In this document: piece after piece, positions 14,897-50,402 of the stretch
Numbering within the stretch: position 1 is the first letter of the stretch
Layout of the letters: each line of letters starts with the position of its first letter
Source: a virus
DNA: 50,402 nucleotides
Strand: one strand, 5' to 3'
Virus record (IMG/VR): IMGVR_UViG_3300008116_003048
Span: 1-50,402 of that record
The notes under the pieces: generated by a model
The model's database searches: none
Told to the model about the DNA's origin: nothing
Seen by the model: the letters and a program-made list of their open reading frames with translations, nothing else
Program-made: the position numbers and the translations under genes

Positions 14897-14898
14897 GA

Positions 14899-15609: not shown

Positions 15610-15612
15610 TAT

Positions 15613-16413: not shown

Positions 16414-16437
16414 ACTATTTGTTTTTATTTTTTTAAT

Positions 16438-22541: not shown

Positions 22542-23440
22542 TTCCTTATTGTCTCGTAGTTTTCATTGAACCAATCAATTGTTTCTTTTAATCCTATCTC
22601 AAGTGGAATAAAATTATAATTGCCTATGATATCTATAAGTCTTTGATTAGAAGACGGCTTTCTAAACTGTCCATCTGGTTTATCTGTAAGCCATTTGACT
22701 TCACCTTTAAATTCCATGTACTGAACAATCAGATCAACCACTTCTTTAATAGAGTATTCTTTTGGATTAGAGATTATAACAGGATCAGTTCCATCATAAT
22801 TTTCTAGTAGTAGATCAATTATGTTTGCTACATCTTCTGAGAAGACAAACTCTCTTAAAGGTTTACCAGATCCCCATACTTCAAAAGCTGTATTATTCTT
22901 TTTAGCTAGATAGCATTTATGAATAAGCATTGGAATAACGTGACCATTCTCAAGGTCAAAGTTATCATTAGGACCATAAATGTTTGTTGGTATTACACAG
23001 AAGTATTTTGTGCCGTATTGTTTATTGTATGCTTGTATTTGAACGTCTGCCATTCTCTTTGCATATGCGTATGGTGCATTAGAGAAGTGAGGTTCACCTT
23101 TATGTATCTTAGTTTCATCTAATGGATATTCTACATTGTCTGGAAATACACACGTAGATAGAAAACAAACAAGCTTCTTAACTCCAAATATGTAGGCTTC
23201 ATTTATAACATTTGTATTCATCATAATGTTGTTATAAAAGAAGTCAGCGGGATAATTCATATTAGCCCCAACACCACCTACTGTAGCAGCTGTATGGACC
23301 ACTACACCTGGCTTATGATCCATAAACATCTTTCTAGTTTGCACTTCTGATATTAGGTTGTAGTGCTTAGAAGATAATTTAGTGCCATCTTTAAAAGCAG
23401 AACCAACCAAACCAGTTCCTCCAGTTATGATCTTCTTCAT
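22538..23440 (-). CDS. fcl: GDP-L-fucose synthase
   Basis: An SDR with IITGGTGLVGSAF, VVHTAATVGGVGANM, FLSTCVFPD and PYAYAKRMADVQIQAY (YxxxK), which follow the GDP-fucose synthase pattern, including the later IPTNIYGPNDNF. It epimerises at C3 and C5 and reduces C4 of the Gmd product. ATGA overlap with gmd supports balanced expression. Confidence 0.9.
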   Translation of the reverse strand: MKKIITGGTGLVGSAFKDGTKLSSKHYNLISEVQTRKMFMDHKPGVVVHTAATVGGVGANMNYPADFFYNNIMMNTNVINEAYIFGVKKLVCFLSTCVFPDNVEYPLDETKIHKGEPHFSNAPYAYAKRMADVQIQAYNKQYGTKYFCVIPTNIYGPNDNFDLENGHVIPMLIHKCYLAKKNNTAFEVWGSGKPLREFVFSEDVANIIDLLLENYDGTDPVIISNPKEYSIKEVVDLIVQYMEFKGEVKWLTDKPDGQFRKPSSNQRLIDIIGNYNFIPLEIGLKETIDWFNENYETIRK

Positions 23441-24750: not shown

Positions 24751-25364
24751 AACACTGCGTATAACGTATTTTGTTTTTCTTGTCTCTCGATTGTTTTAGG
24801 ATGAATCAGGCAATAGAATTCCTCAGGTGGCATCATAGCATACGTATTATGCCCTGTCAAAACCTCATGAACCTTGTTGACCCAATTGATCTTAGGTGAG
24901 TTCTGTAAGATCCTTGTTTGATAGTCTGGAAAGTTTACCCAACCTTTATCGTCAACTCTCCATCTCCAGATATCAATATGTTTTTGAGCCAGTCCTTCTA
25001 CTGTGTTAATCCTAGGTAATAAAAATAAATCAATTGTTGGATTATCTTGCAGAATTTCTGGCAAGTGTTGTATAAATTCTTCTTTTAAGTATTCATCAGC
25101 GTCTATTTGAAAGATCCACTCTCCAGAACAATTTGCTTTAAGGTTATTCTTGAAAGCGCCGAAGTTGCCTTTAAGTGCAAACTCTACTAATCTAATTTGA
25201 TTCTTATATTTATCAACCACTTGATAAACTTCTCCAGTAGTGTTACCAAGATCTGCTTGAACCACAATTTCATCTTCAGGTCTTTTATTCTTAATTAGTA
25301 GATCTAACAGTCTATCTAATTCTTTATGTTCATTACAAACTGGTATGGCGTAACTGATTCTCAT
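24747..25364 (-). CDS. Small family 2 glycosyltransferase
   Basis: A 205-residue GT-A protein: ISYAIPVCNEHKELDRLL at the N-terminus, EIVVQAD, and WIFQIDADEYL containing the metal-binding DxD. The C-terminal YQTRILQNSPKINWVNKVHE is typical of the WaaE/KdtX type (heptose-region) transferases. It is soluble and ATGA-coupled to the RfbH-like gene. Confidence 0.85.
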   Translation of the reverse strand: MRISYAIPVCNEHKELDRLLDLLIKNKRPEDEIVVQADLGNTTGEVYQVVDKYKNQIRLVEFALKGNFGAFKNNLKANCSGEWIFQIDADEYLKEEFIQHLPEILQDNPTIDLFLLPRINTVEGLAQKHIDIWRWRVDDKGWVNFPDYQTRILQNSPKINWVNKVHEVLTGHNTYAMMPPEEFYCLIHPKTIERQEKQNTLYAVL

Positions 25365-25816
25365 TATTGTTGTATATCAAATAAACCAATATAGTCACAG
25401 GCTTCAAAGTATCCGTCTTGTCCAAAGTTTTGTAGCGTTTTAGAATCTGACTTGTGTGTCTTTCCTTTAAACCTTGGATTATCTTTCTCTTCTTCTGTTA
25501 AAGGTACAGACTTAATACCACTCCACTGCCATTCATCTTTTGAAGGACCGTTTGCAAAAACTGTTCCTAGTCCATCAACATTAACAACATTAGGGTACCA
25601 CACGCGGCCTTCTTCATCTACATGCTTAATATCTTTGAAGAGTTCAGGCATCTCGGCTTCGTATGTTTCAACATCGTATTCACCCTCTCTGATAAGGTCA
25701 GATGTATTATATCCACAGCTCAAACAAGAATATGCACTATGAAACTCGTTAATAGGAGTTTTATAACAAGCTAATGATTCTTTACATTTAGGGCAAGTAA
25801 TTAAATTATCAGTCAT
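25364..25816 (-). CDS. Conserved T4-like phage zinc-ribbon protein
   Basis: CPKCKESLACY and SCLSCGYNTSDL form a Cys4 zinc ribbon (residues about 8-37), followed by VWYPNVVNVDGLGTVFANG and DEWQWSGIKSVPL. From memory this arrangement recurs in T4-like phages of cyanobacteria and marine bacteria, supporting a myovirus relationship. Function unknown. Its presence inside the glycan operon shows that the sugar genes are interleaved with core phage genes. Confidence 0.6.
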   Translation of the reverse strand: MTDNLITCPKCKESLACYKTPINEFHSAYSCLSCGYNTSDLIREGEYDVETYEAEMPELFKDIKHVDEEGRVWYPNVVNVDGLGTVFANGPSKDEWQWSGIKSVPLTEEEKDNPRFKGKTHKSDSKTLQNFGQDGYFEACDYIGLFDIQQ

Positions 25817-26051
25817 TTAATTGTTGTTTTTTCTTTTGACTATTAGTATAGTTGATTGTAGTTCCTTCAGGATATGAATATGTAGTTGACGTGTTTATAA
25901 ATCCTGTTCCACCTATTCCGATTGAAATTCCACCATCATTAACTTTTGATAACTCTTCCTGTATTTCATCCCATTGTGCAGGTGTAACATTGTATGGATT
26001 AGCAGCTTTAGAGAATCCTTTTAACCATATAACAAATTCTTTCGACGTCAT
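25809..26051 (-). CDS. Small conserved phage protein, 80 aa
   Basis: The N-terminal FVIWLKGFSKAANPYNVTPAQWDEIQEEL resembles a short helical protein repeatedly seen in T4-like phages; the C-terminal half is a glycine/serine/threonine-rich stretch. Function unknown. Overlaps both neighbours by a few bases. Confidence 0.6.
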   Translation of the reverse strand: MTSKEFVIWLKGFSKAANPYNVTPAQWDEIQEELSKVNDGGISIGIGGTGFINTSTTYSYPEGTTINYTNSQKKKQQLND

Positions 26052-27358
26052 ATTTTATTTAATTTAGGAAGTTCTATTTTCTTTAACTTAGGTAGTTGTA
26101 ATTGAGGTTGAGTTGACTTAGGAACTTTGTCAAAATAAGTTTTAATCAGCTCTTTCATTTTATCAAAGCTAAATTCTTCTCTTGACTTCTTAGCTTGCCT
26201 CTTTGCCAACTCTTGATACTTGTTATACTTCTCATAAACGTCTTTAAGATAATGTTTAGCTTGAGATATATCAGGGCTGAACCATTGTGCATCTGGAAGA
26301 ATAATTCCTGGAACATGTGTTGATGGATGCGTTGGTTTTAATTCTCCTCCTATTTGACAAGTAAACTCACGATCTAAAAAGTCTGTTTGTCCTGACCAGC
26401 CAGAAACAATAATAGGCTTTTTAGCCAAAGAGAATTCAAGAAGAGGTCTACCGAACCCTTCACCTTTAGTTAGATTGAACATCGCTTTAACTTTACCGTG
26501 ATTATAAAGGTAGTTAATGTCTTTGTCGTCTAATTCTCCATGAAGTAGATATACATTAGGAAGTTTTCCTTTAACTGATTCTCTGATAGCATCTATCTTT
26601 TTTAGTAGCGCATCTCGATCCATAATACTAGAACCAGCGCCAGATACTTTCATAATCAAAGCAGGTTTATTCTTTTTATCTTTGAATGTCTCTAAGAATG
26701 TTTTAAGCATTAGGCTTACATTCTTTCTGTCTTCGCCAATTTCACCTTGAAGCCAGTGACCAACAAATAAAAAGCAAAAGTCTTCTTCAATTTGATCTAA
26801 CTCTTGAACTAATTCTGTTTCTTCAATATCATTATCTTCTAAAAAGAAGTATTTGTTTAGATCAACTCCTTCAAATAGAACATCAACAGGTTTTTGTAGT
26901 TTAATATCTTGAATAAGTTGATTAGTGTTTTTGTCTCTCTTCTGATATGCGGTTTGCTCAAATACAGTTTTAGCGTGTTTAGAAGACACTAGGGTAACAT
27001 TCATTCTATTTATTCCTTCTATCCACGCAGGATCGCAAGCAGTAGTTTCTATACCAGCAGTTATACCAATATTATAAACTCCTATTGGTTGAAATTCATT
27101 TGGTACAGTTATTTGAATCCACACATCTGGCTTTTTTGGAAGTTCTGGTGTGTGATGAATCATAGGAAGTATCCAACCCCACTCTTCCATATTATCTTGA
27201 ATATAACCCCAAGGAGTAGCTCCCCATCTTTGACTTAAGATTTTAAAGTCATATTCACTTTTCTTAGTTTGATATAAAGCTCTAAAGAAATCTCTAGCTC
27301 TAGCACCGTAACCGGAGTAAGTATCAATAGGACATGATACAATACACAACTGTTTCAT
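26048..27358 (-). CDS. Family 4-like (GT-B) glycosyltransferase
   Basis: A 436-residue GT-B enzyme: the C-terminal domain shows FLFVGHWLQGEIGEDRKN and TKGEGFGRPLLEFSLAKKP, the GEGFG...E nucleotide-sugar contact, followed by IIVSGWSGQTDFL. The N-terminus (YSGYGARARDFF) fits the acceptor domain. No membrane helix. Probably one of the first enzymes acting in the operon order. Confidence 0.85.
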   Translation of the reverse strand: MKQLCIVSCPIDTYSGYGARARDFFRALYQTKKSEYDFKILSQRWGATPWGYIQDNMEEWGWILPMIHHTPELPKKPDVWIQITVPNEFQPIGVYNIGITAGIETTACDPAWIEGINRMNVTLVSSKHAKTVFEQTAYQKRDKNTNQLIQDIKLQKPVDVLFEGVDLNKYFFLEDNDIEETELVQELDQIEEDFCFLFVGHWLQGEIGEDRKNVSLMLKTFLETFKDKKNKPALIMKVSGAGSSIMDRDALLKKIDAIRESVKGKLPNVYLLHGELDDKDINYLYNHGKVKAMFNLTKGEGFGRPLLEFSLAKKPIIVSGWSGQTDFLDREFTCQIGGELKPTHPSTHVPGIILPDAQWFSPDISQAKHYLKDVYEKYNKYQELAKRQAKKSREEFSFDKMKELIKTYFDKVPKSTQPQLQLPKLKKIELPKLNKI

Positions 27359-27359
27359 A

Positions 27360-28802
27360 TTAGTATATTAATTTGTGTGTAATTTTATTTTTAGGTAACT
27401 TTTCTATTTTAAGTAGTTCAAACTTCTTTCTAGGTTTAAACTTAACAAATGTTTCATCTACTGATTCAATGATATTGTCGCACATGTGTTTTGCACTCAT
27501 CATAGATTCTTCAGATAGAACCCATTTACGTCCAGCCATACCTCGTCTTTGTCTTTCTTCTATTGGCATATTATAAACCTGTTCTAGCTTTTCTGCTGCA
27601 TCAATGAAGCTACAGCGATCATCTATAATATAAGGTGTAGGTATTGAACCAACTATACTTTGATTTGTTGGAAATAAAGGTATTGCCCACTCTCCACATT
27701 CTTTATATGTACCGTAATGATTAGAACAGAATTTATCATCGAAGTCAATCCACTTACCATTCTCATCAACAAACCTCATTTGATCTTGCATACCACCAGT
27801 TACATTTGCCATGATCATTTTACCGCACATCATACCTTCAGTTAAGCTAAGACCCCAACCTTCATTGGAAGACATTAACATAACAATGTCGCTTAAGTTA
27901 TAGAGTAGATTAACTTCTTCAGCTGGTACACGTGAATCAGAGAAGTATACCTTTTGATATTCTGGGTCGCAAAGGAGTTCTATTACGGCTTCTAAGTCTG
28001 TACCGTTTTCGTCTTGTCTTTGTGTGTGAAGTACAAGCGCACATTTAGAAGCCTTTTCTTTACCTATTCTATCACAAAATACAGAATACGCTGCAATAGT
28101 GTCTGCTGTACATTTACGTCTAATATTTCTTGAATTGTAGAACACAATAAACTCTGGTTCAAAATCACCAAAAATTTGCTTTCTTTTTGCTTCTAACTTG
28201 TCATTTTCGGGATTCATGAATTCTGTGATAGGATAGAATATCTTCTCATTAATTCCATGAGGTACATACTTAATGATCTTGTCTTTAGCTTTATCTCCTA
28301 GAACAAGTCTATTAATATTTTGAGTTTGTTTAGAGATTGCCATTAAAGTATCACAAGACTCATAGTATGATTTGTTATATAATGGAGCTGGCATATCGTC
28401 CCAAATATTCAAATAGATCATTGGAACTTTTTTACGTATCTCATTCTCCATCTGGAATAACCATATCCAGTATCTAGGATCAGTAAAGAACATGATAGCG
28501 TCTGGCTTTTCTATTTCCATTAATTGCCTAATCAACTCTACCGTACCATATCCAGATATTGGGTACATATAAACACTTGCATCAGGAATATCAGCAACAC
28601 GATTAGTATCTTGAGAAATGTCTAGACGTTTGCCTTGATCTGGGTGATTAATAGCAGCTCCTAAATTAACCCAATTGTATCTGTGTGCTGTACCTACAAC
28701 TATCTCTCTAGCCATGGTAGAGATTCCAGAAGTCATGCGTATGTCATCACATAAGAACAGAATTTTCTTTCTCTGTTCTCTAGGAATGTAACCTTCTTTC
28801 AT
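27360..28802 (-). CDS. Family 4-like (GT-B) glycosyltransferase
   Basis: The 480-residue protein begins with a basic stretch, then ILFLCDDIRMTSGISTMARE (glycine-rich acceptor loop) and contains SSNEGWGLSLTEGMMCGK, the conserved E-x7-E region of GT4. It is the first enzyme gene of the operon, 7 bp downstream of the ribbon-helix-helix gene. A paralogue-like partner lies next to it. Confidence 0.85.
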   Translation of the reverse strand: MKEGYIPREQRKKILFLCDDIRMTSGISTMAREIVVGTAHRYNWVNLGAAINHPDQGKRLDISQDTNRVADIPDASVYMYPISGYGTVELIRQLMEIEKPDAIMFFTDPRYWIWLFQMENEIRKKVPMIYLNIWDDMPAPLYNKSYYESCDTLMAISKQTQNINRLVLGDKAKDKIIKYVPHGINEKIFYPITEFMNPENDKLEAKRKQIFGDFEPEFIVFYNSRNIRRKCTADTIAAYSVFCDRIGKEKASKCALVLHTQRQDENGTDLEAVIELLCDPEYQKVYFSDSRVPAEEVNLLYNLSDIVMLMSSNEGWGLSLTEGMMCGKMIMANVTGGMQDQMRFVDENGKWIDFDDKFCSNHYGTYKECGEWAIPLFPTNQSIVGSIPTPYIIDDRCSFIDAAEKLEQVYNMPIEERQRRGMAGRKWVLSEESMMSAKHMCDNIIESVDETFVKFKPRKKFELLKIEKLPKNKITHKLIY

Positions 28803-38015: not shown

Positions 38016-41000
38016 TTACTTACCGAAAGTGTAACGAAGGCCTAGCTGAGCTGTCCACACATCAAACACAGATGAGTTGAATTGATATGTATCACGAGCC
38101 AAGAAAGAACCTGTTGCATCTCTCTGTGTAGATAGTCTATATGTTGGAACACCTGCAGCATCACGGCTTACGAAGTTTAGCAATTGAGGTGCACCTGCAC
38201 GTTGAGATACGCCCCATTTGTTACTCAACATATTACCGAAGTTCAAGATATCTGCACGGATCTGGAAAGCATTACGCTTACCTTTGATCTTTACAAAGAA
38301 GTCTTGAGCGGCAGAAAGATCAAAACGGTGTAGGAATGGTAGATCTAACGCATTTCTTTCTGCGTATTGACCCCTACGTGTTTTCAAATATGGATCTTGA
38401 TTAATGAAAGCATCGAATGCCGCCTGCTGTTGGGCTTCAGTATAAACTGTAGTTCCAACTGTTAATGGAGCAAAGCGAATATCAGATGCTTTATGTGGTA
38501 CAAATATCAAATCATTATTGCTTACACGGTCACCATTTAAATCACCAGCAACAATATATGAGAATGGATTGTTTTGTGATCCTACATAACCTAAGGTTAA
38601 TGTAGTAGCAGTACCATATTTCTTATCACCTTCAATACGGTATCCTAATAAACCAACAATACGATTTCTAACTACGAAATCTGAAGTTGTTAAATTAAGA
38701 GTATTATTACCGAATACAGATTGAGCTGATTGCCAAGAACCAGAAGCAATAGAACCAGCACTCATGAAGTCTTCAGCTTGAGCATTTGTGTATGCTACAT
38801 AGCCCCAAATACCTTTAGATACTGGCTTTTCTAATTTGTAAGTGATTGAACGGTTATAGGCACCATTTCTGTTTGTTAAAACAGCAGCCATTGAAACGTT
38901 ATCATTTACACGAACACCATTGTCATTACCGGCATACAATGGTCTTGTATCAACACCTAATAGATTGCCTACTGGTTTGTCTAGGTTAGCATTGTAATAA
39001 TGAACAGCATTAAGTGTTTGATTGTATAATACTTCAACACTTGCTACTAAACCTAACCAAGGCAATTTATGCTCTACTGCCAAGTTATTCTTCCATACTT
39101 GTGGAAACTTGTAATTAGGATCTGTCAATGCTAGATCAAATGTAGAAGGTAGAGTTGGTGTTGAAGGAATGAAGTACTGGTTTGGATTAGCAGTAAAGCC
39201 ATAAGCGGCTGCAGCTGCACCAGATACATCAATAAACCCTGACAATACACCATTGTTACCGATCTGGTTAGATAAGAATACAAGAGGAGGGCGGCCAGTA
39301 AAAATACCACTACCACCACGTACTTGTGTTTTACCTTTACCTTTTACGTTCCAGTTAAAACCAAAGCGAGGTTCAAATAACAATTGCATTTCTGGCATTA
39401 CACCTGTATTCCACTTCTCACCATCGGCAAAAGTCATTGCTGTAATGGCTTTGTTCTCTAGAGCTGTGTTATTGATTCCAATAATGTTTGCTCTGATACC
39501 AACAGTTAGCTTTAGGTTTTTAACACCATTATATTCATCTTGTAGATAAACATCTGTTCTAGTTGATTCTAAAGTCTGCATTGGTGCAATTCCACCTGGT
39601 AAAGCAGAGTAGCGAAGTTGGAAACGTGCAGGTGCAAAAGTTGAAGGACGACCATTATTTGCTAATGATTGATTAGCAGCAGTATAGAAGTCATTCAAAC
39701 TATTAAAGATATAAACACCATTAGAGGCTGGGAAGAACAAATTGTTTGACTGATATTGTTGGAAGTTAAAACCACCAACTACAGTATGTTTACCAAGATA
39801 CTTAGTTAAGTTGTTAGTAACGTTAAATGTCCAATAGTCCAATTTGTTATCTGGTGTAAATGGATCAAACCCTACTGAAGTGTAAGTTGCTGAACCTTCA
39901 CGAATATCAATGGTTGGAAACATTTGACTCATGTAAGCCCTGTTCTCAATTTGCTTGTCGTAAGACACGATCAAGTTATTGTGAAGTGTGTTAGAGATCT
40001 TTGAGTTAAGTTCCAATACTGCTGAACGGGTGTTATCCATAATAATGTAACCACTATTTTGGAAACTCATAGCATTAAACTGAGTTGTACGGTTACCAGC
40101 ACCTGCCGACTGAGAGTTTGAAATATTTATTTCAGCCGATGAGTTATGGTGAACATAACGAGCAGTAAGTTTGTTTTTAGCATTGATGTTCCAATCAACA
40201 CGAACGAGAAATTTGTTAGACTCATTAGTGTTGGAATACCCTTCCCATGGTCCGGTTGTATAGTTAAACTTCTCTTTCATGAACTTAGAAAGTGAGTCCA
40301 TTGCAGAGTATCTAACACGAGATACTTGACTTCCTGTTAAAGGAGATCCGGCTGAGATCCAAGTTGTTCCTGGTTCTGTGCGTTCAATCTGCTCATAGTT
40401 ACCAAATACGAACAATTTGTTCTTGATAATAGGAAGACCTAAACGGAAGCCTTGTACTTTCTCATCAAACTTCTGTGCTGTGACAGTTGTACCACGAGCA
40501 TTATTACCTACATAACGAGATGAATTATCACGTTGTGTTTGATAAACTGATCCTTCGATATCGTTTGTACCAGAGCGAGTTACAGCATTGATACCAGCAC
40601 CAGTGAATCCAGATTGACGAATATCAAATGGAGCAATGTTAACTTGCAATTGATCGATAGCGTCAAGAGAGATAGCAGAAGCTCCTGTACGACCACCGGC
40701 TTGTGCTGAAGATCCTAGACCGAAGTTGTTGTTGAATTGTGAACCGTCAATAGTGAAGTTGTTCATACGAGAGTCTTGAGCTCCGAATGAAGTACCATTA
40801 CCAAATGGATTGTACTTAGTAATACCATCGATTGTTCTGGCTCCTGTGATAGGAATAGAAGTTAATTCACGACGACCGAACTGCTGAGCAGCCCCTGTTT
40901 TTTGTCTTGAAAAGGCACTATTGCCACTAACAACTACTTCTTTGAGAGCCTTTACCTCATCAATCAAAACGAAGTCAACGTTAGATGTTAAACCTAACTG

Positions 41001-41282
41001 TGTGTTGACGTCTACAACTTCTCCTTTCTTGAATCCTACGAAAGAAGCGTGGATTGTGTAAGGACCTCCTACTCGAACAGCAGGAAGCACATACATACCT
41101 GATTTGTTTGTGGTAGCAGTGTACTCTGTACCTGTTGGAAGGTGGATTGCATGGATTGTTGCACCTACCAACTGATCGTTCTTGTCATTTTTTACTACTC
41201 CAGAGATTGCAGATGTTGTAATTTGACCGAACCCTGCAAAGGCACTAAGTAGAAAAAACAACGATAGAATCGCATTTTTCAT
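38016..41282 (-). CDS. TonB-dependent outer-membrane receptor (Oar-like, carboxypeptidase-regulatory domain)
   Basis: Starting at 41282 the protein (1088 aa) has a signal peptide (MKNAILSLFFLLSAFAGFGQ), a carboxypeptidase-D-regulatory-like beta domain (about residues 25-115: ISGVVKNDKNDQLVGATIHA), a plug (RRELTSIPITGARTIDG, DGSQFNNNFG) and a long barrel ending LGLRYTFGK, the usual aromatic outer-membrane C-terminus. All parts of a Bacteroidota TonB-dependent transporter are intact. It is flanked by its own terminator and leader, like a phage moron. An upstream in-frame ATG at 41381 lacks a signal peptide. Confidence 0.9.
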   Translation of the reverse strand: MKNAILSLFFLLSAFAGFGQITTSAISGVVKNDKNDQLVGATIHAIHLPTGTEYTATTNKSGMYVLPAVRVGGPYTIHASFVGFKKGEVVDVNTQLGLTSNVDFVLIDEVKALKEVVVSGNSAFSRQKTGAAQQFGRRELTSIPITGARTIDGITKYNPFGNGTSFGAQDSRMNNFTIDGSQFNNNFGLGSSAQAGGRTGASAISLDAIDQLQVNIAPFDIRQSGFTGAGINAVTRSGTNDIEGSVYQTQRDNSSRYVGNNARGTTVTAQKFDEKVQGFRLGLPIIKNKLFVFGNYEQIERTEPGTTWISAGSPLTGSQVSRVRYSAMDSLSKFMKEKFNYTTGPWEGYSNTNESNKFLVRVDWNINAKNKLTARYVHHNSSAEINISNSQSAGAGNRTTQFNAMSFQNSGYIIMDNTRSAVLELNSKISNTLHNNLIVSYDKQIENRAYMSQMFPTIDIREGSATYTSVGFDPFTPDNKLDYWTFNVTNNLTKYLGKHTVVGGFNFQQYQSNNLFFPASNGVYIFNSLNDFYTAANQSLANNGRPSTFAPARFQLRYSALPGGIAPMQTLESTRTDVYLQDEYNGVKNLKLTVGIRANIIGINNTALENKAITAMTFADGEKWNTGVMPEMQLLFEPRFGFNWNVKGKGKTQVRGGSGIFTGRPPLVFLSNQIGNNGVLSGFIDVSGAAAAAYGFTANPNQYFIPSTPTLPSTFDLALTDPNYKFPQVWKNNLAVEHKLPWLGLVASVEVLYNQTLNAVHYYNANLDKPVGNLLGVDTRPLYAGNDNGVRVNDNVSMAAVLTNRNGAYNRSITYKLEKPVSKGIWGYVAYTNAQAEDFMSAGSIASGSWQSAQSVFGNNTLNLTTSDFVVRNRIVGLLGYRIEGDKKYGTATTLTLGYVGSQNNPFSYIVAGDLNGDRVSNNDLIFVPHKASDIRFAPLTVGTTVYTEAQQQAAFDAFINQDPYLKTRRGQYAERNALDLPFLHRFDLSAAQDFFVKIKGKRNAFQIRADILNFGNMLSNKWGVSQRAGAPQLLNFVSRDAAGVPTYRLSTQRDATGSFLARDTYQFNSSVFDVWTAQLGLRYTFGK

Positions 41283-41385
41283 ACGTGTTTTGTTTTGGTT
41301 AAAAAATAAAGAGTGAAAAATAATACCCTGGTAAGAACTACCAGAATATAAAGATTTATGTATATAAAACGAAACGTCCATTCTC

Positions 41386-41461
41386 TAATAAATATTTCCA
41401 AGGCCTCCAGGTTCCGTACCAAGTATTAACAGAATATTATCAATTTGATAACGGAGCCTTG
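41386..41461 (-). promoter_or_regulatory. Leader region of the TonB receptor gene with extended secondary structure
   Basis: ATATTTATTA occurs at 41386-41395, in the same context (ATATTTATTAGAG-x-ATGG) as before the plus-strand gene at 37061. Further upstream CAAGGC and TCCGT pair with GCCTTG and ACGGA, enclosing the palindrome TATCAATTTGATA (41438-41450); this overlaps the end of thyA. It may be thyA's terminator-like end plus the receptor's promoter. Confidence 0.45.
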
Positions 41462-42525
41462 ATAGAAGGGTGTGATTTGTAGTTCTCCAAAGTAAGGTGT
41501 TCTACAGAATATTCAGGTAAATTCCCCTCATGTCTTATCACTTCATTTGAAATTTTTAATGTAGGCAATTCAAATGGCTCTCTACTGATCTGCTCTTTTG
41601 CTTGATCTACATGGTTCAGATATAAATGGGTATCCCCTAGACTACCTACCAATTGATCAGGAACCATGTTCACTTCTTTGGCTATAATTTCAAGTAGCAG
41701 TGCATAACTTGCAATGTTGAATGGTAAACCTAAGAACGTATCTACTGAACGTTGATTCCACATTAGTGAGATTGCTCGTTTAGGTATATTATGTGATTGT
41801 AATTCCTCACTTAATCCACCGCCGAATGGAACAATATCATCAACCATTGATTTGAATCTATCATCACCAACTTTCTTTTTTAATAAATTCCATCTCTCTC
41901 CGATGATCAATTCTCTTGTATAAACTTGAAAACCGTAATGACAAGGTGGTAAAACCATTTGGTCTAATTCACCTACATTCCAAGCATTGACCATCATGCG
42001 TCTACTATCTGGGTTTGTTTTGAGTTGCTCGATTAGGTTTGTGATTTGGTCTATATAATCTATAATATGGAGTGTTTCTTTATGTTCTGTATCTTCTACT
42101 TTCCTATATCGTTTCCAACTTCTCCATTGCTTACCGTAAATTGGACCTAAGTCGCCCCATTGCTTAGCAAACTCATCATCGGTTTTGATCTTGTTAATGA
42201 ACTCTTCTTTTGTTAAATAATGTTCATGTCCTACTGGAGCGTTATGTAAATGTACTTTATATGCATCTCCATCCCAAATATGACATCTATTATCAACAAG
42301 ATATTTGATATTAGTATCACCTCGTAAGAACCACAATAACTCTGTTACCATAGTTTTCCAAGCCATCTTCTTTGTTGTTAACAAAGGAAAGCCTTCTTTC
42401 ATATTATGTCTGATAGTATAGCCAAAGATTGACTTGGTGCCAGTTCCTGTACGATCTTTCTTTTCTACGCCATAGTCAAGTATGTCTTGAAGTAGTTGTT
42501 GATACTGCTTATCTATATTGTTCAT
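41440..42525 (-). CDS. thyA: Thymidylate synthase
   Basis: All ThyA hallmarks are present: DRTGTGTKSIFGY, the catalytic Cys in LPPCHYGFQVY (C195), RSVDTFLGLPFNIASYALL with the dUMP-selecting Asn, and GDTHLYLNHVDQ. The protein is 361 aa, longer than the usual 264, mainly because of inserts around residues 90-115 and after the catalytic loop. It methylates dUMP to dTMP. Its 5' end overlaps the upstream gene by 4 bp. Confidence 0.97.
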   Translation of the reverse strand: MNNIDKQYQQLLQDILDYGVEKKDRTGTGTKSIFGYTIRHNMKEGFPLLTTKKMAWKTMVTELLWFLRGDTNIKYLVDNRCHIWDGDAYKVHLHNAPVGHEHYLTKEEFINKIKTDDEFAKQWGDLGPIYGKQWRSWKRYRKVEDTEHKETLHIIDYIDQITNLIEQLKTNPDSRRMMVNAWNVGELDQMVLPPCHYGFQVYTRELIIGERWNLLKKKVGDDRFKSMVDDIVPFGGGLSEELQSHNIPKRAISLMWNQRSVDTFLGLPFNIASYALLLEIIAKEVNMVPDQLVGSLGDTHLYLNHVDQAKEQISREPFELPTLKISNEVIRHEGNLPEYSVEHLTLENYKSHPSIKAPLSN

Positions 42526-43539: not shown

Positions 43540-44004
43540 TCACAATCTTATAAGTGGTACGTCTAATTTGGTATGGAGTACATGTCTAGGTTGGCCTGAC
43601 TTTGTAAAACCTATACTATAGGCTTTGTGCTTAATGATAGGAGTCACTTCTATTATTCTAGACTCTTCAGGATTATTTCCCCAGATACACAAGATCTTCT
43701 TACAAGTGATAGTCATTCTTTGAATCCACTTATCATTTTCTTCAAGTACAGGATTCTCTACTTCTTTTAGTAGTTTAGGATCTGGACTAATGTAACTATA
43801 TAGATTAGTTATAAAGAGGCTATCAAAACCTTCACGCTTTGCAATTTTTGATAATGCTGACACTGTTAAGTTCTTACCGTCTTTTGTTATAGACGGGTTT
43901 AACCCAACTACACCTAAAGGGTTTTGCATAGACTGTTCATAGAACCAACTAGCAAACTGGTGTTTACCGCAATGACTCTTGAACTTTTCTATATTTAGCA
44001 TCAC
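43540..44004 (-). CDS. DUF1643-like protein
   Basis: GVVGLNPSITKDGKNLTVSALSKIAKREGF, FITNLYSY and CIWGNNP...KHKAYSIGFTKSGQPRHVLH follow the layout of the DUF1643 family, common in phages and mobile elements; biochemical role unknown. It overlaps the upstream gene by 41 bases. Confidence 0.75.
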   Translation of the reverse strand: MMLNIEKFKSHCGKHQFASWFYEQSMQNPLGVVGLNPSITKDGKNLTVSALSKIAKREGFDSLFITNLYSYISPDPKLLKEVENPVLEENDKWIQRMTITCKKILCIWGNNPEESRIIEVTPIIKHKAYSIGFTKSGQPRHVLHTKLDVPLIRL

Positions 44005-44576: not shown

Positions 44577-45215
44577 TTATTTAAGCATGTTGTAATGTCT
44601 TGGATAGATATGTAGATTAGTAATGAACCAATGCATATCACCTACTTCATAGCCAGTCTTTTCAGATACTAGCTCCATTAGTTTAGCAAAAGTGTATTGA
44701 TCATTACAGAATCCGTAAACTAGGTCAATTGATCTAGCAAATACAGTTAGTTGTAACTTATCATCTTGAATATAGAAGTTAAGTATATCATTACAAGGTG
44801 TGTCGTATTTGTATCGATCTAACTCGTCTAGATTATAATGTACTACAATAGCTCTACGTGTTTCTTTGTTAGTCTTAAGATCTTCAATGATACGGTTTAG
44901 TTGATCGTTGTAATTCCAGAAGTAGCCATAGTTAGAGTTTACTTCTGTTGTACCTGGTACCATCATTTGTTTCCAGATCTTGGCACGTTCAGATATTTCT
45001 GAAGCATCACGATCACCTTTGAGATACCAATCCCATTCGTAGTCAGCGTAGTCTTTGTTGAACTTACGCTCAGGTGTTGTTACAACTTTATCTTTAGGAT
45101 TATCGATAGTAAAAGATACATTGAACATTGCTTTTGTGCCAGCAAAGTCTTGACCATTTGCCATGATATCACGAAACAAAATCTCGAATGCGTCGGTTGC
45201 GTTATTGTACCTCAT
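44577..45215 (-). CDS. Thymidylate-synthase-family pyrimidine hydroxymethylase (dCMP hydroxymethylase-like)
   Basis: The 212-residue protein is a shortened TS-fold enzyme: RRAIVVHYNLDELD, the catalytic Cys in DTPCNDILNFYIQ (C141), RSIDLVYGFCNDQYTFAKLM and DMHWFITNLHIYPRH. By eye-alignment Asp172 takes the place of the Asn that selects dUMP in ThyA, as in phage T4 dCMP hydroxymethylase. It therefore probably converts dCMP to 5-hydroxymethyl-dCMP or a related product. A separate ThyA is present, so this paralogue is not for dTMP. Confidence 0.75.
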   Translation of the reverse strand: MRYNNATDAFEILFRDIMANGQDFAGTKAMFNVSFTIDNPKDKVVTTPERKFNKDYADYEWDWYLKGDRDASEISERAKIWKQMMVPGTTEVNSNYGYFWNYNDQLNRIIEDLKTNKETRRAIVVHYNLDELDRYKYDTPCNDILNFYIQDDKLQLTVFARSIDLVYGFCNDQYTFAKLMELVSEKTGYEVGDMHWFITNLHIYPRHYNMLK

Positions 45216-45615
45216 ACTTCTCTACTTGTATAAATTGTTTAAGAAAGTTAATACCTTCAGTGCTTCTGTATTCATTCAAATATACAACACGTTTGATTCC
45301 GGATTGCAGTATAAGTTTAGAGCAATCTAAACATGGGCTAAGTGTTAAGTACAAAGTAGACCCATCTACAGAGTTGCCTGTTTTGGCAGCTTTTAAGATT
45401 GCTCCCATTTCCGCATGAACAACATATGGTAAAGTAACATTGTCTTTTTCACAACAATTATCCATTCCTGGAGGTGTGCCATTGTATGACATGCTTATAA
45501 TATTACCGTCTTTAACTAATATTGCACCTACTTTAGATCTATTACATTTAGACATAGTAGATATCTCTTTAGCTATGTTTAAAAAAATAGTATCTAGTTG
45601 TTTTTGGCTTGGCAT
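45202..45615 (-). CDS. dCMP deaminase
   Basis: The zinc-binding deaminase motifs are intact: HAEMGAI (His67, Glu69) and LSPCLDCSKLI (Cys95, Cys98). It turns dCMP into dUMP for ThyA, competing with the neighbouring dCMP-directed enzyme for substrate. At 137 residues it is the usual length. Overlaps both neighbours. Confidence 0.93.
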   Translation of the reverse strand: MPSQKQLDTIFLNIAKEISTMSKCNRSKVGAILVKDGNIISMSYNGTPPGMDNCCEKDNVTLPYVVHAEMGAILKAAKTGNSVDGSTLYLTLSPCLDCSKLILQSGIKRVVYLNEYRSTEGINFLKQFIQVEKYEVQ

Positions 45616-46154
45616 ACTCTTCCTTTTTTATATCCTTCTGGTATTTCTTTACCTTCTTTGATTAATATGTTGTTGACTCCGTTTGTATACCAATGCTTGG
45701 GGTGGTACTTTCTTGGTAATAAGCTAATTCTTTTGAGATGTCCTGATTCTACATTGTTCTTTCCTTGCATTGCTCCACCTTTTATACAAACTTCTCTTCT
45801 AAGTTCTTCATTAAAAAAACAGTTTAGTTTGTTTTCTCTACATACTTTAGCTGCAATTTGTCCAGCCAGTTTGTTATCAGACATGGATTGTATTTTTTTC
45901 ATGAAGCCAGAATCTGCATTTATTTTCCCTTGTCTTTTTCCATTCATTGATCTTATTTCATTAATCAACTCTTCTTTTGATATTTGCCCAGATAAACATC
46001 TCCAAGCAATAAAGTCTTCTTGCATACCATATTTTTCCCATAATAGTCTATGCTCTTCTGCATGTTCTTCTAATGTTACTAGTTTTATATTTGAGGGATC
46101 ATCAGATCCTCCTGCGTGTTTAGGTACTATATGGTGTTTGTACAATTTATTCAT
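45594..46154 (-). CDS. HNH homing endonuclease
   Basis: The N-terminus KLYKHHIVPKHAGGSDDPSNIKLVTLEEHAEEHRLL is a canonical HNH nuclease core with HH, N and H residues intact. The rest contains repeated GKxNxxSGxxxKI-like units that resemble NUMOD-type DNA-binding repeats. The start at 46154 (MNKLYKHH) follows the conserved structured leader. Its end overlaps the dCMP deaminase start by 22 bases. Confidence 0.8.
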   Translation of the reverse strand: MNKLYKHHIVPKHAGGSDDPSNIKLVTLEEHAEEHRLLWEKYGMQEDFIAWRCLSGQISKEELINEIRSMNGKRQGKINADSGFMKKIQSMSDNKLAGQIAAKVCRENKLNCFFNEELRREVCIKGGAMQGKNNVESGHLKRISLLPRKYHPKHWYTNGVNNILIKEGKEIPEGYKKGRVCQAKNN

Positions 46155-46164
46155 AAAAATAAAA

Positions 46165-46262
46165 GGTCCCAAAAAACAGAGGAGCTACTACCTTCCTAAG
46201 TCTTAGGGGACCAATAAGTTTATTATAGATTGTTGGTAGTAGCAACATTCTATCTATAATAA
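46165..46262 (-). ncRNA. Structured RNA leader with kissing loops, upstream of HNH gene (copy 2)
   Basis: Hairpin A is GTTG-CTACTAC-CAAC (46232-46246) inside a perfect 11-bp TTATTATAGAT/ATCTATAATAA stem. Hairpin B is AGGaAG-GTAGTAG-CTCCT (46180-46197). The long-range helix is GGTCCC/GGGACC (46165-46170 with 46207-46212). Loops A and B are exact 7-base complements but differ in sequence from copy 1 at 6910-7002, so the loop pairing is conserved by compensatory change. Confidence 0.75.
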
Positions 46263-46273
46263 ATATCTACAAC

Positions 46274-46696
46274 TTACAATCCTGTTGAACCAAAACCGCC
46301 CTTTCTCTCAGTATTGTTCTCTATATTATCAACCTCTTCTACGTCAAAGTAGCATACTGGAATAAGAACAAATTGTATCAACTTTTGACCTGTTGCTACT
46401 GTTTGATCTTTGTCAGATATGTTGATAACATGGAGATGTATCTCCAACCTATAGTCTTCATCAACTACACATGCACCAACTTGTAGACCTTGCTTAGTAG
46501 CAACGCCTGATTTGTTGAATGCAATTAGTGCATAGCCTCTTGGCACTTGTGCTTTGATTCCTGAAGGAATTAATACTGATTGGCCTGGTTTTAGGACAAC
46601 GGTTTCAAAGTCTTCAGGCACATAGAAGTCAATACCTGCTGATACAGAGGTACCTCTACTTGGTGTTTTTACGTTTCGTAACTTTTGTACTTTCAT
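46274..46696 (-). CDS. dut: dUTP diphosphatase
   Basis: The trimeric dUTPase motifs are present: SAGIDFYVP, NKSGVATKQGL, VGACVVDEDYRLEI and ERKGGFGSTG at the C-terminus. It removes dUTP and supplies dUMP to ThyA. The start at 46696 is fixed by an ATGA overlap with the small gene upstream. 140 residues, normal length. Confidence 0.95.
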   Translation of the reverse strand: MKVQKLRNVKTPSRGTSVSAGIDFYVPEDFETVVLKPGQSVLIPSGIKAQVPRGYALIAFNKSGVATKQGLQVGACVVDEDYRLEIHLHVINISDKDQTVATGQKLIQFVLIPVCYFDVEEVDNIENNTERKGGFGSTGL

Positions 46697-46803
46697 CGTG
46701 AATAGCATTTTGATAGCATACCTTCTTGCATTGGCCCATATTGACGGGCTTTCTCTTCGGATCTCTTGTAGATGATCTCGTTAGCTTGTTCTAGTATATT
46801 CAT
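46693..46803 (-). CDS. Small protein, 36 aa, possibly a truncated phage family member
   Basis: ATG at 46803 to TGA at 46693-46695 encodes MNILEQANEIIYKRSEEKAR followed by QYGPMQEGM and a short tail. This N-terminal block resembles the beginning of a phage protein family in which a longer helical domain follows (from memory, the DUF6378/MazG-like type). Here it stops early, so it may be a truncated remnant. ATGA overlaps on both sides suggest it is still translated. Confidence 0.55.
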   Translation of the reverse strand: MNILEQANEIIYKRSEEKARQYGPMQEGMLSKCYSR

Positions 46804-47327
46804 AACTTTGTTTTATATATAACAAAACCAGAGAAGTCAGATCCTCCAACCTCAACGTCTTTTAGCTTCCAATTTGGTCCTAATTGAGATAGTCTTTTTA
46901 CAACTATCGTTTTATACAATGCGCTCTTTTGTGGATCTGTTTTAGTCAATAAATTCTGAGGATCTTTATTAGCTGCAAAGAATACAAGTGCTTCTGTTTT
47001 TGGATTGTCTTTCACATACTGTAACACTATATCAGTTACTGTTTTAAGTATTTTGATTAGTTCTTTGTATGTCGCCTTTTTATATTGTGATTGTTCTCCT
47101 TCTATTGTATATTCTACATTAATGGTATTAGGCCTTTTAGTAGGTATATTTAAAAGCTGGAACTCTCCAAAAGGTATTACAGATAATTCTACAGTTACTT
47201 GCCAACCTTGATCTGTAGTAAATGTATTGTTAGAATACGAGTAAGCTTCTACACCTTCTAGATCTCCAACTTCGTTGAGTATATTCAACAAACTAGTTCT
47301 CATCTCTAGTAGGCTAAGTTTATTCAT
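46800..47327 (-). CDS. Hypothetical protein, 175 aa
   Basis: Starting at 47327 (MNKLSLLEMRTSLLNILNEV) after ATATTTATCCAAT; a soluble alpha/beta protein with YSNNTFTTDQGWQVTVELSV, no family recognised. It is ATGA-coupled to the 36-residue gene. A longer in-frame ATG at 47369 is less likely because it precedes the leader motif. Confidence 0.6.
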   Translation of the reverse strand: MNKLSLLEMRTSLLNILNEVGDLEGVEAYSYSNNTFTTDQGWQVTVELSVIPFGEFQLLNIPTKRPNTINVEYTIEGEQSQYKKATYKELIKILKTVTDIVLQYVKDNPKTEALVFFAANKDPQNLLTKTDPQKSALYKTIVVKRLSQLGPNWKLKDVEVGGSDFSGFVIYKTKL

Positions 47328-47365
47328 ATTGGATAAATATAAAACAGATTGGTGAAATGATAAAA

Positions 47366-48253
47366 TCATTCTCCTAAGTACCTAGTGATATCACTCTTAT
47401 CACCCCACTCTCGTTGAGAGTCTACGTCACTTGGCTTGATTGTTGGCTTAGGCATGTTTCTTGCAACATTCCAGAACCAATCTCCTAAGTTGCCGTAACG
47501 TTTCATATAGTCCCAACCTTTTGCGTCATAGGTCTTGATACAATCAAATGGAGTATCGATGTCTGCTTCTTTTAGAAACTCTTTATGGTATGTATAGAAT
47601 TTAGCTCTACCAAGTTCACCTGGTTGTACATTTCTTGCAACAGCAACTGCGTTAAAGTTTACATGAGGAAGTGCTATCTGTAAAGTTCTTGATAGAACAC
47701 CTGTAGAAAATACACTCCACATTGTTTCTACACGCTTGTCTTTAAACGCTTCATGAAATATCTTGACTCCTCCTGCTACTACTTGTTCATGCTTAAGACC
47801 AAAAGGTAGATATTTTGCGCCTATCTTTTGAGCAAACTCTTTTGCCCAACCGTTAATAGTTGGCATTGCAGGTGTTTTTAAGAAGATAGGTGTTGCTCCA
47901 TCTTCAATTACACGTAGTTGATGTTCAGATGCTTCTTTAGATGCCGGCATAAACAACACTAACTTCTTGTTATACTTCTTAGCAAGGTAAGTTAATGAAT
48001 AAGGAGCATAGCCTGTTCTAGGTGCAACATAAACTAATGTGTCTTCTTTGACTTGACTGATCATAAAGTCACCCATCTTAGCTTTAGTCCCGTATTGAAA
48101 CTCGCCGTCGTCTACAATAGTAAACCCTTCTACTTGTTTTAACTTAAAGTCAAAGTCTGGTGTGTAGTCCTTTGTCATTTCAAGATAGTAGTTTAAGTCT
48201 CTACCATCTGACATGTCTAGATTAGACTGATCTATCGCTTTGTTTATAAACAT
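47366..48253 (-). CDS. PLP-dependent fold-type-II enzyme-like protein
   Basis: The sequence FQYGTKAKMGDFM, TLVYVAPRTGYAPYSLTYLAKKYNKKLVLFMP and EHQLRVIEDGATPIFL resembles the ACC-deaminase/threonine-synthase type of PLP enzymes, with Lys57 or Lys59 as candidate Schiff-base residue and FSTGVLSRTL as a possible phosphate-binding loop. Such enzymes eliminate or replace groups on amino acids. Beside nucleotide-modifying genes it may supply or attach an amino-acid-derived group; this is inference. Confidence 0.6.
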   Translation of the reverse strand: MFINKAIDQSNLDMSDGRDLNYYLEMTKDYTPDFDFKLKQVEGFTIVDDGEFQYGTKAKMGDFMISQVKEDTLVYVAPRTGYAPYSLTYLAKKYNKKLVLFMPASKEASEHQLRVIEDGATPIFLKTPAMPTINGWAKEFAQKIGAKYLPFGLKHEQVVAGGVKIFHEAFKDKRVETMWSVFSTGVLSRTLQIALPHVNFNAVAVARNVQPGELGRAKFYTYHKEFLKEADIDTPFDCIKTYDAKGWDYMKRYGNLGDWFWNVARNMPKPTIKPSDVDSQREWGDKSDITRYLGE

Positions 48254-48256
48254 TAA

Positions 48257-48910
48257 TTACTGTTTTTTATCTTGAAGGTCCTTACTCAATTGACTAATAG
48301 GTACAGGAGTTCCTACAGGATAAGGAAAGCCTTCTTTAGCAGCAGTGATAGATGTCATTCCTGATTTAACAGGAATTGCTTTGCGAAGTGGAACTGCCGC
48401 TTCATTAAGAGGTCCATATACTTTTGCTAATACGATACCTGAAGATGTTGTATCGAAGATAATACCTGGCATTGCAAACATGTTACTCTCACTTGTACTT
48501 GCTGAATCAAGGTTTATAACAAATGCACGATTTACAGGCGGTAATAATTCCCACTCATTTGTTGATGGATTAAATTGAGGTATCAATTTTGTTGAATCAT
48601 AGTACCAAAATAAGGACCATACAGTTTTATCTGTCCCATCAGGTGTTTGGAAGTTTTCGCTTACATTAAATTGTCCATAAGTTCCACTGATTCCTTGCAT
48701 TGCTAAATTGGAAATAGATGGTCCATCTAGTACAGGACATATTGCGCACTCGAGAGTTTCTTCAGTTGATTCATATTCGAACCATCCATCATTAATTCCT
48801 TTTTTTATTTCAGAATAGCTTGAGAGTATTCCTAAAATAATAACAATTGTCAATATTGCTTTCCAATTGTCTTTGATTAGTTTTGATAAGTCTTGAAATA
48901 GTTTTTTCAT
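48257..48910 (-). CDS. Membrane-anchored extracytoplasmic protein, 217 aa
   Basis: One transmembrane segment (about residues 17-32, WKAILTIVIILGILSSY) is followed by a long domain with a CAIC motif and beta-rich sequence. It would be anchored in the inner membrane facing the periplasm. Function unknown. It sits between the PLP-like and helical hypermodification-like genes. Confidence 0.65.
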   Translation of the reverse strand: MKKLFQDLSKLIKDNWKAILTIVIILGILSSYSEIKKGINDGWFEYESTEETLECAICPVLDGPSISNLAMQGISGTYGQFNVSENFQTPDGTDKTVWSLFWYYDSTKLIPQFNPSTNEWELLPPVNRAFVINLDSASTSESNMFAMPGIIFDTTSSGIVLAKVYGPLNEAAVPLRKAIPVKSGMTSITAAKEGFPYPVGTPVPISQLSKDLQDKKQ

Positions 48911-48922
48911 GATTTTTATTTT

Positions 48923-49966
48923 TTATTTTAGTCTTTTAGCGAAGTCATAGTATGTGTCTAGACCCCAGGTCTGTTTCAATATAGAGTTATTGTGCATTCT
49001 ACGACCATTGTTCTTAATGATGTGATCGTCTGATTGATACTCTTGGAAGTAACGTACAACGTCACATGCTCGACTATCTTCACAATCAATAGGGTTTAGA
49101 TTATACCTCTTCGACAAGAATTGTAGAACCTCATTGATATATTCAAACTCTTTTACTCTAGAGCTAACCTTAGGAAAGATTGCATTGATACAACGAATAG
49201 CATTAGTTCCAGCATACACCCAACCTTTTGGGTTAACATAGTTAGGAAAGTACTCACTTATATCAGCTGCGAATGCAGTTAGTACGAAGTTTTGCCTCTT
49301 GAATCCAAGGTCTTTTAAGTAGTCGTTTCCTAGATCAGTTAATTGATAGATGTCGTATCTCTTAGTTTGCACTGCTTCAAACAGATGCCTAACTAATCCT
49401 TCAGAGTAGTCTAGAATAAACTTTCTTAAGTGACCACGAGTCTCACCTTCAAATGTGAACTGAGGAAGTAAGTAGCCTTTATTATCTGTGAATGGTGTAA
49501 TACGATTCCTGAGGTCTTCTTTCCATTCTGGCCATGTATACCTGTTCTTCAATATAGAATCCACGATCCAGAAGTTACCGAAGCCATGCGTTCCTAATAT
49601 GTCCTTGATATGGTCCTTCTTGTATCTTGGTACATAGTTAATACCAGATCCACATAGTCTAAACAAATAGAACAACATGAACCAGTCAAAGTCGTCTTTG
49701 ATATCATGATGAGAAAAGTGATGGCCCATGCCTCTCAAGTCTTTCTCTTTATACCATACTGCTTCAGTAAAAGCACAGAATGCAGCGAACCTACGATGAG
49801 CTGTGTCATAAATAGGTACATGATAGATTAGATCGTCGTTTACATCTTCGTACAAATTACCTTCGTAAGGTAGACCTAAGCTACCATGTTGTTGCATTAA
49901 TAGACTACGCTTATCGTATTCGTCTAATGCTTCTAACAGCTTTTCGTTGATTATGAATTTCTGCAT
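48923..49966 (-). CDS. Large helical protein, tentatively of the thymine-hypermodification helical superfamily
   Basis: A 347-residue soluble, mainly helical protein. Blocks such as NFVLTAFAADISEYFPNYVNPKGWVYAG, GTNAIRCINAIF and CEDSRACDVVRYFQEY recall, from memory, the helical DNA-glycosylase-like families (alpha-glutamyl/putrescinyl thymine pyrophosphorylase and 5-hmdU kinase helical domain) found in phages with hypermodified bases. The resemblance is weak and unverified. Neighbourhood with nucleotide enzymes supports a DNA-modification role. Confidence 0.4.
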   Translation of the reverse strand: MQKFIINEKLLEALDEYDKRSLLMQQHGSLGLPYEGNLYEDVNDDLIYHVPIYDTAHRRFAAFCAFTEAVWYKEKDLRGMGHHFSHHDIKDDFDWFMLFYLFRLCGSGINYVPRYKKDHIKDILGTHGFGNFWIVDSILKNRYTWPEWKEDLRNRITPFTDNKGYLLPQFTFEGETRGHLRKFILDYSEGLVRHLFEAVQTKRYDIYQLTDLGNDYLKDLGFKRQNFVLTAFAADISEYFPNYVNPKGWVYAGTNAIRCINAIFPKVSSRVKEFEYINEVLQFLSKRYNLNPIDCEDSRACDVVRYFQEYQSDDHIIKNNGRRMHNNSILKQTWGLDTYYDFAKRLK

Positions 49967-50402
49967 TATTTAAAAATTACAGTTGTAGTGAACATATAAT
50001 ATCGAGGCTTCAAGTGTACAGATTGTTTAGGTTCCATATACTCAAACATCTTCATACCATCTCCATCTACCCACTCCTCTGGCCATTGTAGTGTATTAAT
50101 ATCTGAGTTGTTCATGATCCTATTAGCAATGTCTCTTAAGTGCATACGTTCTGATCTTGTACCAAAGAAAGGTTGTTTAAGATATAAACCTGTACCAGGT
50201 AATTTACGACTTTCGTGCTCAACAGGTAAAAGATTCACTAGAGTAGCGTTGTTTAGTTTCTTAGCAAAATCAACATAACGTCTAAATAGATCTCCTGTCG
50301 CAGCTTCAGGGTTGTCTTGCCTCATCAAGTGAAAACGTAGATCAATGTTACCAAAGTATAAAACGATCTCATCATACTTACTGTTCCACTCTTCGATTAA
50401 TT
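49966..50402 (-). CDS. Putative SGNH-like protein, 5' end beyond the window
   Basis: The open frame continues to the right edge: reading in frame upstream gives WNSKYDEIVLYFGNIDLRFH before MRQDNPEAATGDLFRRY. The FGNIDLRFH stretch and later LLPVE, LPGTG and SERMHLRDI resemble SGNH/GDSL-like proteins in phage loci. The true start lies outside the window; the TTG/ATG near 50328 is internal. It overlaps the helical gene by one base. Confidence 0.5.
   Translation of the reverse strand, partial: LIEEWNSKYDEIVLYFGNIDLRFHLMRQDNPEAATGDLFRRYVDFAKKLNNATLVNLLPVEHESRKLPGTGLYLKQPFFGTRSERMHLRDIANRIMNNSDINTLQWPEEWVDGDGMKMFEYMEPKQSVHLKPRYYMFTTTVIFK

Follow-up and report, generated by a model that had tools for sequence, protein, structure and literature searches.

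A conserved gene cassette of aquatic phages and its possible part in cytosine hypermodification

Gene content and conservation of the cassette

The window analysed here is an entire virus record of 50,402 bases (IMGVR_UViG_3300008116_003048; G000), a phage fragment, and our subject is a cassette of minus-strand genes that runs up to its edge. A preliminary description, made from the sequence alone, had assigned to the interval 44577-50402 a pyrimidine or thymine hypermodification pathway comprising an enzyme of the thymidylate synthase (TS) family, ThyA, dCMP deaminase, dUTPase, a pyridoxal phosphate (PLP)-type enzyme, a helical protein and an SGNH-like protein. All of these are present, close together and on the minus strand, as judged by Pfam and PHROG matches and by synteny over some 80 contigs, although ThyA, a genuine neighbour, lies outside that interval. 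The genes are listed with their supporting matches in brackets; the first is cut because the gene group ends at the window edge.

49966-50402, minus strand: SGNH-like protein, C-terminal 144 amino acids in the window, N-terminus past the edge (motifs; PHROG 13881 and 17781, neither with an assigned function)
48923-49966, minus strand: helical protein, 347 amino acids, predicted amino acid:DNA transferase (ADDT)/HMUDK-helical fold (AlphaFold2 model and Foldseek)
47366-48253, minus strand: fold-type II PLP enzyme, 295 amino acids, family of phage M6 gp52 (PHROG 7093, 1e-28)
46274-46708, minus strand: dUTPase, 144 amino acids (PF00692, 7e-22)
45202-45615, minus strand: dCMP deaminase, 137 amino acids, frequent in the block though missing from some loci (PF00383, 1e-24; PHROG 174, 8e-57)
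44577-45215, minus strand: TS-family pyrimidine hydroxymethylase ('TS-like'), predicted dCMP-specific, 212 amino acids (PF00303, 8e-30)
41440-42525, minus strand: canonical thymidylate synthase ThyA, 361 amino acids, supplying dTMP (PF00303, 1e-96; NCBIfam NF002496, above cut-off)

Conservation was assessed in IMG/VR phage contigs from aquatic metagenomes (the nearest homologues, the longest of 183 kb), where a core block of SGNH-like, helical, PLP-type and TS-like genes is found around 81 distinct helical-protein sequences. The linkage counts that follow cover only those of the 81 loci with enough flanking sequence. The PLP gene lies downstream of the helical gene in all 75 loci that are long enough, the SGNH gene lies upstream in 68 of 69, and the TS-like gene occurs downstream within the available DNA in 47 of 49. 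The two exceptions to the last are L190, where the TS-like gene is farther away on the same contig, as it is in the near-identical relative G014, and L194, which comes from a short contig fragment. The record from which L076 is taken has an SGNH relative at a distance of 70 kb. This gene order is kept even though identity drops to 48-57% for the helical protein and to around 40% for the SGNH and PLP proteins. Genes for dCMP deaminase, dUTPase, MazG-like and DUF6378 proteins are variably present around the core. Synteny over about 80 distinct phage contigs excludes a chance neighbourhood, and the gene group is thus confirmed as real and strongly conserved.

The modified base and the tailoring proteins

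In T4 dCMP hydroxymethylase, Asp179 is the key determinant of the choice between dCMP and dUMP, while Asp145, three residues before the catalytic Cys, activates water; the latter position is occupied by Leu in thymidylate synthases and by Asp or Glu in hydroxymethylases (PMC6400193). Alignment assigns the corresponding roles in the TS-like enzyme to Asp172 (base-selecting, aligned with T4 Asp179), Asp138 (water-activating, aligned with T4 Asp145) and Cys141 (nucleophile) (PMC6400193). A profile of the TS-like family searched against the PDB ranked the T4 enzyme (1b49) top, with an E-value of 1e-20, above every thymidylate synthase. Both Asp residues are present in each of the 73 readable TS-like copies from cassette loci and the catalytic Cys in 82 of 82 readable sequences. 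Every readable ThyA copy in the cassette loci, that of the window included, has Asn at the first of these diagnostic positions and Leu at the second. M6, PaMx11, an SPO1-like phage, LysYB1 and nACB2 likewise have hydroxymethylases with Asn at the first position; these phages are of thymine-modifying types or carry genes of the 5-hydroxymethyldeoxyuridine (5-hmdU) kinase family. Since the double-Asp signature occurs in all TS-like copies, as against Asn in the thymine-type hydroxymethylases, the predicted product is 5-hydroxymethyl-dCMP, and the sequences indicate that the modified base is most likely cytosine rather than thymine. The Asp that the preliminary description reported at the base-selecting position is therefore borne out, and that remark already pointed towards cytosine; the thymine of its title finds no support, given the dCMP signature in every copy and the Asn of thymine-hypermodifying phages.

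The window copy of the helical protein has no Pfam, PHROG or NCBIfam match, and neither it nor 12 divergent members match PF18724 or PF18723, for which 0 of 36 records rose above cut-off; a hidden Markov model (HMM) of HMUDK_hel does match the homologue in L083 weakly, within the helical gene (12.7 bits, E-value 0.001). A first AlphaFold2 model built from 15 close sequences was useless, with a mean predicted local distance difference test score (pLDDT) of 47. A model from 19 homologues, with members 57-65% identical added, reached a pLDDT of 82 and a predicted template modelling score of 0.84. Foldseek searches with the latter against BFVD, a set of predicted viral structures, returned at the head of the list a close homologue, an unnamed protein, the amino acid:DNA transferase A0A6J5L8T5 (E-value 4e-10, TM-scores 0.74/0.68), a second amino acid:DNA transferase and another unnamed protein, followed at E-values above 0.1 by a clade 1 alpha-glutamyl/putrescinyl thymine pyrophosphorylase and a pair of 5-hmdU-kinase helical domains, one of them from phiW-14. 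All the named matches are thus ADDT or HMUDK_hel proteins. A fold search of the PDB gave no match, in line with the lack of solved members of this fold. Forced profile alignment with ADDT and HMUDK_hel is co-linear at several motifs, with profile scores at control level. As these scores do not rise above controls, we claim a fold and not membership of a Pfam family. On the strength of the model, the helical protein is likely to be the component that acts on the base. The HMM searches proposed in the preliminary description hence placed the TS-like gene in PF00303 and the helical gene in no family; its suggested resemblance to hypermodification families stands at the level of predicted fold, but not of a Pfam match for the window copy. 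No member of the helical family was found in 84,980 cellular genomes, searched with exact-pattern seeds, nor in annotated phage records.

As to the PLP enzyme, PHROG 7093 is matched by the window protein (1e-28), by the distant member in L087 (3e-37) and by M6 gp52 itself (2e-159), and Lys57 of the window protein (in the context T-K-A-K) aligns with the presumed PLP lysine of M6 gp52 (S-K-I-R, within 'SKIRG'). Divergent homologues match Pfam PALP below cut-off, and a PDB sequence search with the PLP profile found nothing. The gene arrangement also corresponds: in phage M6, gp52 directly follows the amino acid:DNA transferase gp51, and here the PLP gene follows the helical gene. Erythrobacter and Microcystis phages contain remote homologues of the PLP family (KY006853.1 gp1, L090, and PP438422.1, L091:8968-9678); these are annotated as DNA modification methylase, and the Microcystis one adjoins ParB/methylase-type genes.

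Nearly all homologues of the SGNH-like protein conserve the motifs GDSH...GNID...QSVH, which resemble SGNH blocks I, III and V (GDS, GxND and His), while Pfam, NCBIfam and PDB profile searches with it gave no match. A single reading frame of 713 residues encodes both the SGNH and the helical protein in L187. A C-terminal Q(L/M/V)xLF tail is present in 24 of 72 distinct SGNH copies (L081:7096-7989, L087:781-1680 and 22 other SGNH genes) as against none of 2481 other long open reading frames (ORFs) of the same loci. This tail resembles the motif with which bacterial partner proteins bind the sliding clamp, and it suggests that the SGNH protein acts at the replication fork.

Beside the helical gene, the SGNH-like gene occupies the place of a kinase. 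In known thymine pathways a P-loop kinase phosphorylates 5-hmdU in DNA before an alkylamine is added (PMC6449724). The cassette itself contains no kinase, a point on which the preliminary description was silent, and the 5-hmdU DNA kinase domain HMUDK_HMUD1 was found in 0 of 17 records, contigs of 136, 162 and 183 kb included. Of the 183-kb relative (G003), 180 kb were examined and showed no small P-loop protein of kinase-like type; the 162-kb relative (G002) has a gene cluster at a distance that encodes a Zeta-toxin-like P-loop protein. As the PaMx11 kinase is itself partly Zeta-like, we do not take absence of a kinase as proven. The idea that a DNA kinase merely sits elsewhere in the genome found no support in record-wide searches. 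The hydroxymethyl kinase or pyrophosphorylation step that had been expected from known phages was thus looked for and not found.

Known systems, proposed pathway and alternatives

The closest comparison is with Pseudomonas phage M6, a thymine modifier whose set comprises gp51 (ADDT), gp52 (PLP), gp53 (radical S-adenosylmethionine, SAM), gp54 (5-hmdU DNA kinase), gp55 (HMUDK_hel) and gp58 (hydroxymethylase). The cassette shares with it a TS-family hydroxymethylase, a helical protein of predicted ADDT/HMUDK_hel fold and a PHROG 7093 PLP gene adjoining the helical or ADDT gene. It differs in having a dCMP-type Asp where the M6 hydroxymethylase has Asn, in the lack of any HMUDK_HMUD1 kinase found, in its SGNH-like partner and in a helical protein too divergent for HMMs; no relative of the radical-SAM protein gp53 was found in G002 or G003. 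With T4 (gp42) the cassette shares the Asp179/Asp145/Cys148 signature and the proximity of dCMP deaminase, TS and pool-cleaning enzymes. Whereas T4 glucosyltransferases place glucose on 5-hydroxymethylcytosine (5-hmC), the linked genes here are those for the PLP enzyme, the SGNH-like protein and the helical protein of predicted ADDT fold. Cytosine hypermodification by phages has precedent in the 5-carbamoyloxymethylcytosine and 5-carboxymethylcytosine-glycine systems, the second of which puts an amino acid on cytosine; in the available parts of the two reports these employ a carbamoyltransferase, or a carboxy-SAM (Cx-SAM) carboxymethyltransferase with an ATP-dependent ligase, and no ADDT-fold or PLP enzyme is noted there (PMC8670742; PMC12783734). 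Microbacterium phage Golden (L126, 1353-5750; gp47, gp54 and gp55) resembles the window in having an Asp-type hydroxymethylase near an HMUDK_hel protein; it is a candidate second cytosine system that may set a precedent for cytosine as the substrate of the helical family. Unlike the window, it has a P-loop kinase (Ploopntkinase3) adjoining the helical gene, and no PLP or SGNH gene was identified nearby.

We judge it somewhat better than an even chance that the cassette replaces cytosine by a hypermodified cytosine, in which 5-hmC receives an amino-acid-type group through the helical and SGNH proteins, without a 5-hmdU-type kinase, and is then tailored by the PLP enzyme. Sequence supplies the dCMP-type hydroxymethylase, ThyA, dCMP deaminase, dUTPase, the assignment of the PLP enzyme to the PHROG of M6 gp52 and the strict linkage over some 80 contigs, while the ADDT/HMUDK_hel fold comes from the model, to which the L083 match may be added. 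The L187 fusion, the clamp-like tails and an operon in the distant relative L290 complete the argument. The last (L290:319-2295) combines a NUDIX hydrolase, a thymidylate-kinase-like protein and an Asp-type dCMP-hydroxymethylase-like gene, and fits the nucleotide-level first half of the proposed pathway. The final base and the role of the SGNH protein we infer.

The steps envisaged are these. The TS-like enzyme is strongly predicted to convert dCMP to 5-hydroxymethyl-dCMP. Host or phage kinases would then raise this to the triphosphate and the phage polymerase would insert 5-hmC into DNA, with MazG, DUF6378 and dUTPase-type proteins trimming unmodified pools and ThyA and dCMP deaminase maintaining ordinary dTTP. 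On the DNA, the helical protein would act together with the SGNH-like protein, which in some family members is predicted to be held at the sliding clamp; the two would put an amino-acid-derived group on the hydroxymethyl carbon, with no 5-hmdU-type kinase involved. Finally, the M6 gp52-like PLP enzyme would tailor the adduct, most simply by decarboxylation, to yield an aminoalkyl-type cytosine that blocks restriction; the modification probably hides phage DNA from bacterial defences. A more specific and decidedly more tentative version is a kinase-less route of a widespread, undescribed family of aquatic phages, in which 5-hmC is activated or esterified by the SGNH protein, clamp-tethered in some members, for a highly divergent amino acid:DNA transferase, the PLP enzyme acting afterwards.

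Several points weigh against the amino-acid-derived cytosine reading. The helical protein has no sequence-level membership of ADDT or HMUDK_hel, and hhalign comparison with alignments of these families gave probabilities of 1-2%; controls with reversed or shuffled alignments scored about as well, and the use of 81 sequences did not change this. The SGNH assignment comes from motifs alone, and the clamp motif is missing from the window's own SGNH subgroup, so that the tail is not essential to the mechanism. M6 gp52, moreover, is taken to decarboxylate an amino-acid adduct on the base, which for the reaction of the PLP enzyme here serves as a lead only.

Glycosylation of 5-hmC in the manner of T4 is the main rival because a sugar operon is partly conserved in the large relatives. 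This large polysaccharide-type operon occupies 9508-28802 of the window on the minus strand and encodes GMD, an FCL-like protein, a DegT aminotransferase, a pair of family 4 glycosyltransferases (GT4), a thiamine pyrophosphate enzyme, and dehydroquinate-synthase-like and HpcH-aldolase-like proteins. Its glycosyltransferases would modify 5-hmC while the SGNH, helical and PLP proteins add something minor or separate. Parts of the operon and the two GT4-like genes are kept in G002 and G003, in G003 right after the TS-like gene, and the dCMP-type hydroxymethylase also suits such a scheme. However, just 4 of the 27 records with the cassette, most of which are fragments, were found to have GT4 genes, and the constant companions of the hydroxymethylase are instead SGNH, helical and PLP genes; GMD, FCL, DegT and the several glycosyltransferases appear to resemble a pathway for virion or surface-glycan polysaccharide. 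We therefore regard glycosylation as unlikely, and the glycosylated bases entertained in the preliminary description find some backing in the conserved GT4 pair but not in its overall distribution.

Rather improbable, in our view, is a role limited to nucleotide metabolism and 5-hmC, with the SGNH, helical and PLP proteins serving another process, such as small-molecule or protein modification, and neighbouring the hydroxymethylase for regulation. SGNH and PLP folds are indeed common in small-molecule metabolism and the helical protein lacks a sequence-level match to DNA modification, but linkage to the dCMP hydroxymethylase is near-perfect over large divergence, and the predicted ADDT fold, the DNA-hypermodification PHROG of the PLP enzyme and the clamp-like tails all argue otherwise. 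Slightly less credible still is hypermodification of thymine, the strategy of M6, ViI and PaMx11, with the TS-like enzyme making 5-hydroxymethyl-dUMP and the helical and PLP proteins acting on 5-hmdU. The characterised PLP and helical relatives do all act on 5-hmdU (PMC6449724), M6 gp52 among the PHROG of our PLP enzyme; against this stand the invariant Asp where the five phages named above have Asn, the lack of a 5-hmdU DNA kinase in the 17 records and the retention of ThyA in the window. What survives of the preliminary description is its general proposal of a base-hypermodification pathway, upheld by the helical fold and the M6 gp52 PHROG of the PLP enzyme, both lying with a pyrimidine hydroxymethylase in a conserved block.

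If hypermodification of cytosine is correct, amino-acid and PLP chemistry known only from thymine-modifying phages would extend to cytosine, and DNA hydroxymethyl groups would be open to activation without the phosphorylation step thought common to such pathways. There would be a new natural base and, should activation by the SGNH protein hold, new base-activation chemistry with it. An abundant, unnamed phage gene block in aquatic metagenomes would be explained, and a dCMP-type hydroxymethylase accompanied by SGNH, helical and PLP genes would offer a genetic handle for finding such phages.

Accessory and neighbouring genes

Four further genes lie in or beside the cassette:

48257-48910, minus strand: membrane-anchored-looking accessory protein, found only in window-like relatives (no family match)
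46800-47369, minus strand: protein without significant family, 189 amino acids, at the slot of the relatives' DUF6378 protein (relative in L074 50% identical)
45594-46172, minus strand: HNH-endonuclease-like ORF (PF01844, 4e-4, slightly under cut-off; DNA similarity to phage homing endonucleases)
43540-44004, minus strand: DUF1643 protein, accessory neighbour of the TS-like gene (PF07799, 4e-23; 9 of 81 representative loci)

The HNH-like ORF, which lies within the gene group but is unmentioned in the preliminary description, recurs in one other locus only (L020); it is probably a mobile intruder and was set aside from the cassette. In relatives of the window, the genes immediately upstream of SGNH encode homologues of GroEL, GroES and Hsp20 and a family A DNA polymerase (L035:7425-9041, L032:6799-7089, L076:4697-5134, L028:4054-6372). 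Adjoining thyA in the window, at 38016-41381 on the minus strand, is a gene for a 1121-residue outer-membrane beta-barrel protein with a carboxypeptidase-regulatory-like domain (PF13620, PF25183); since 78%-identical homologues follow thyA in the phage loci L036 and L037, this gene is phage-borne and not an assembly artefact.

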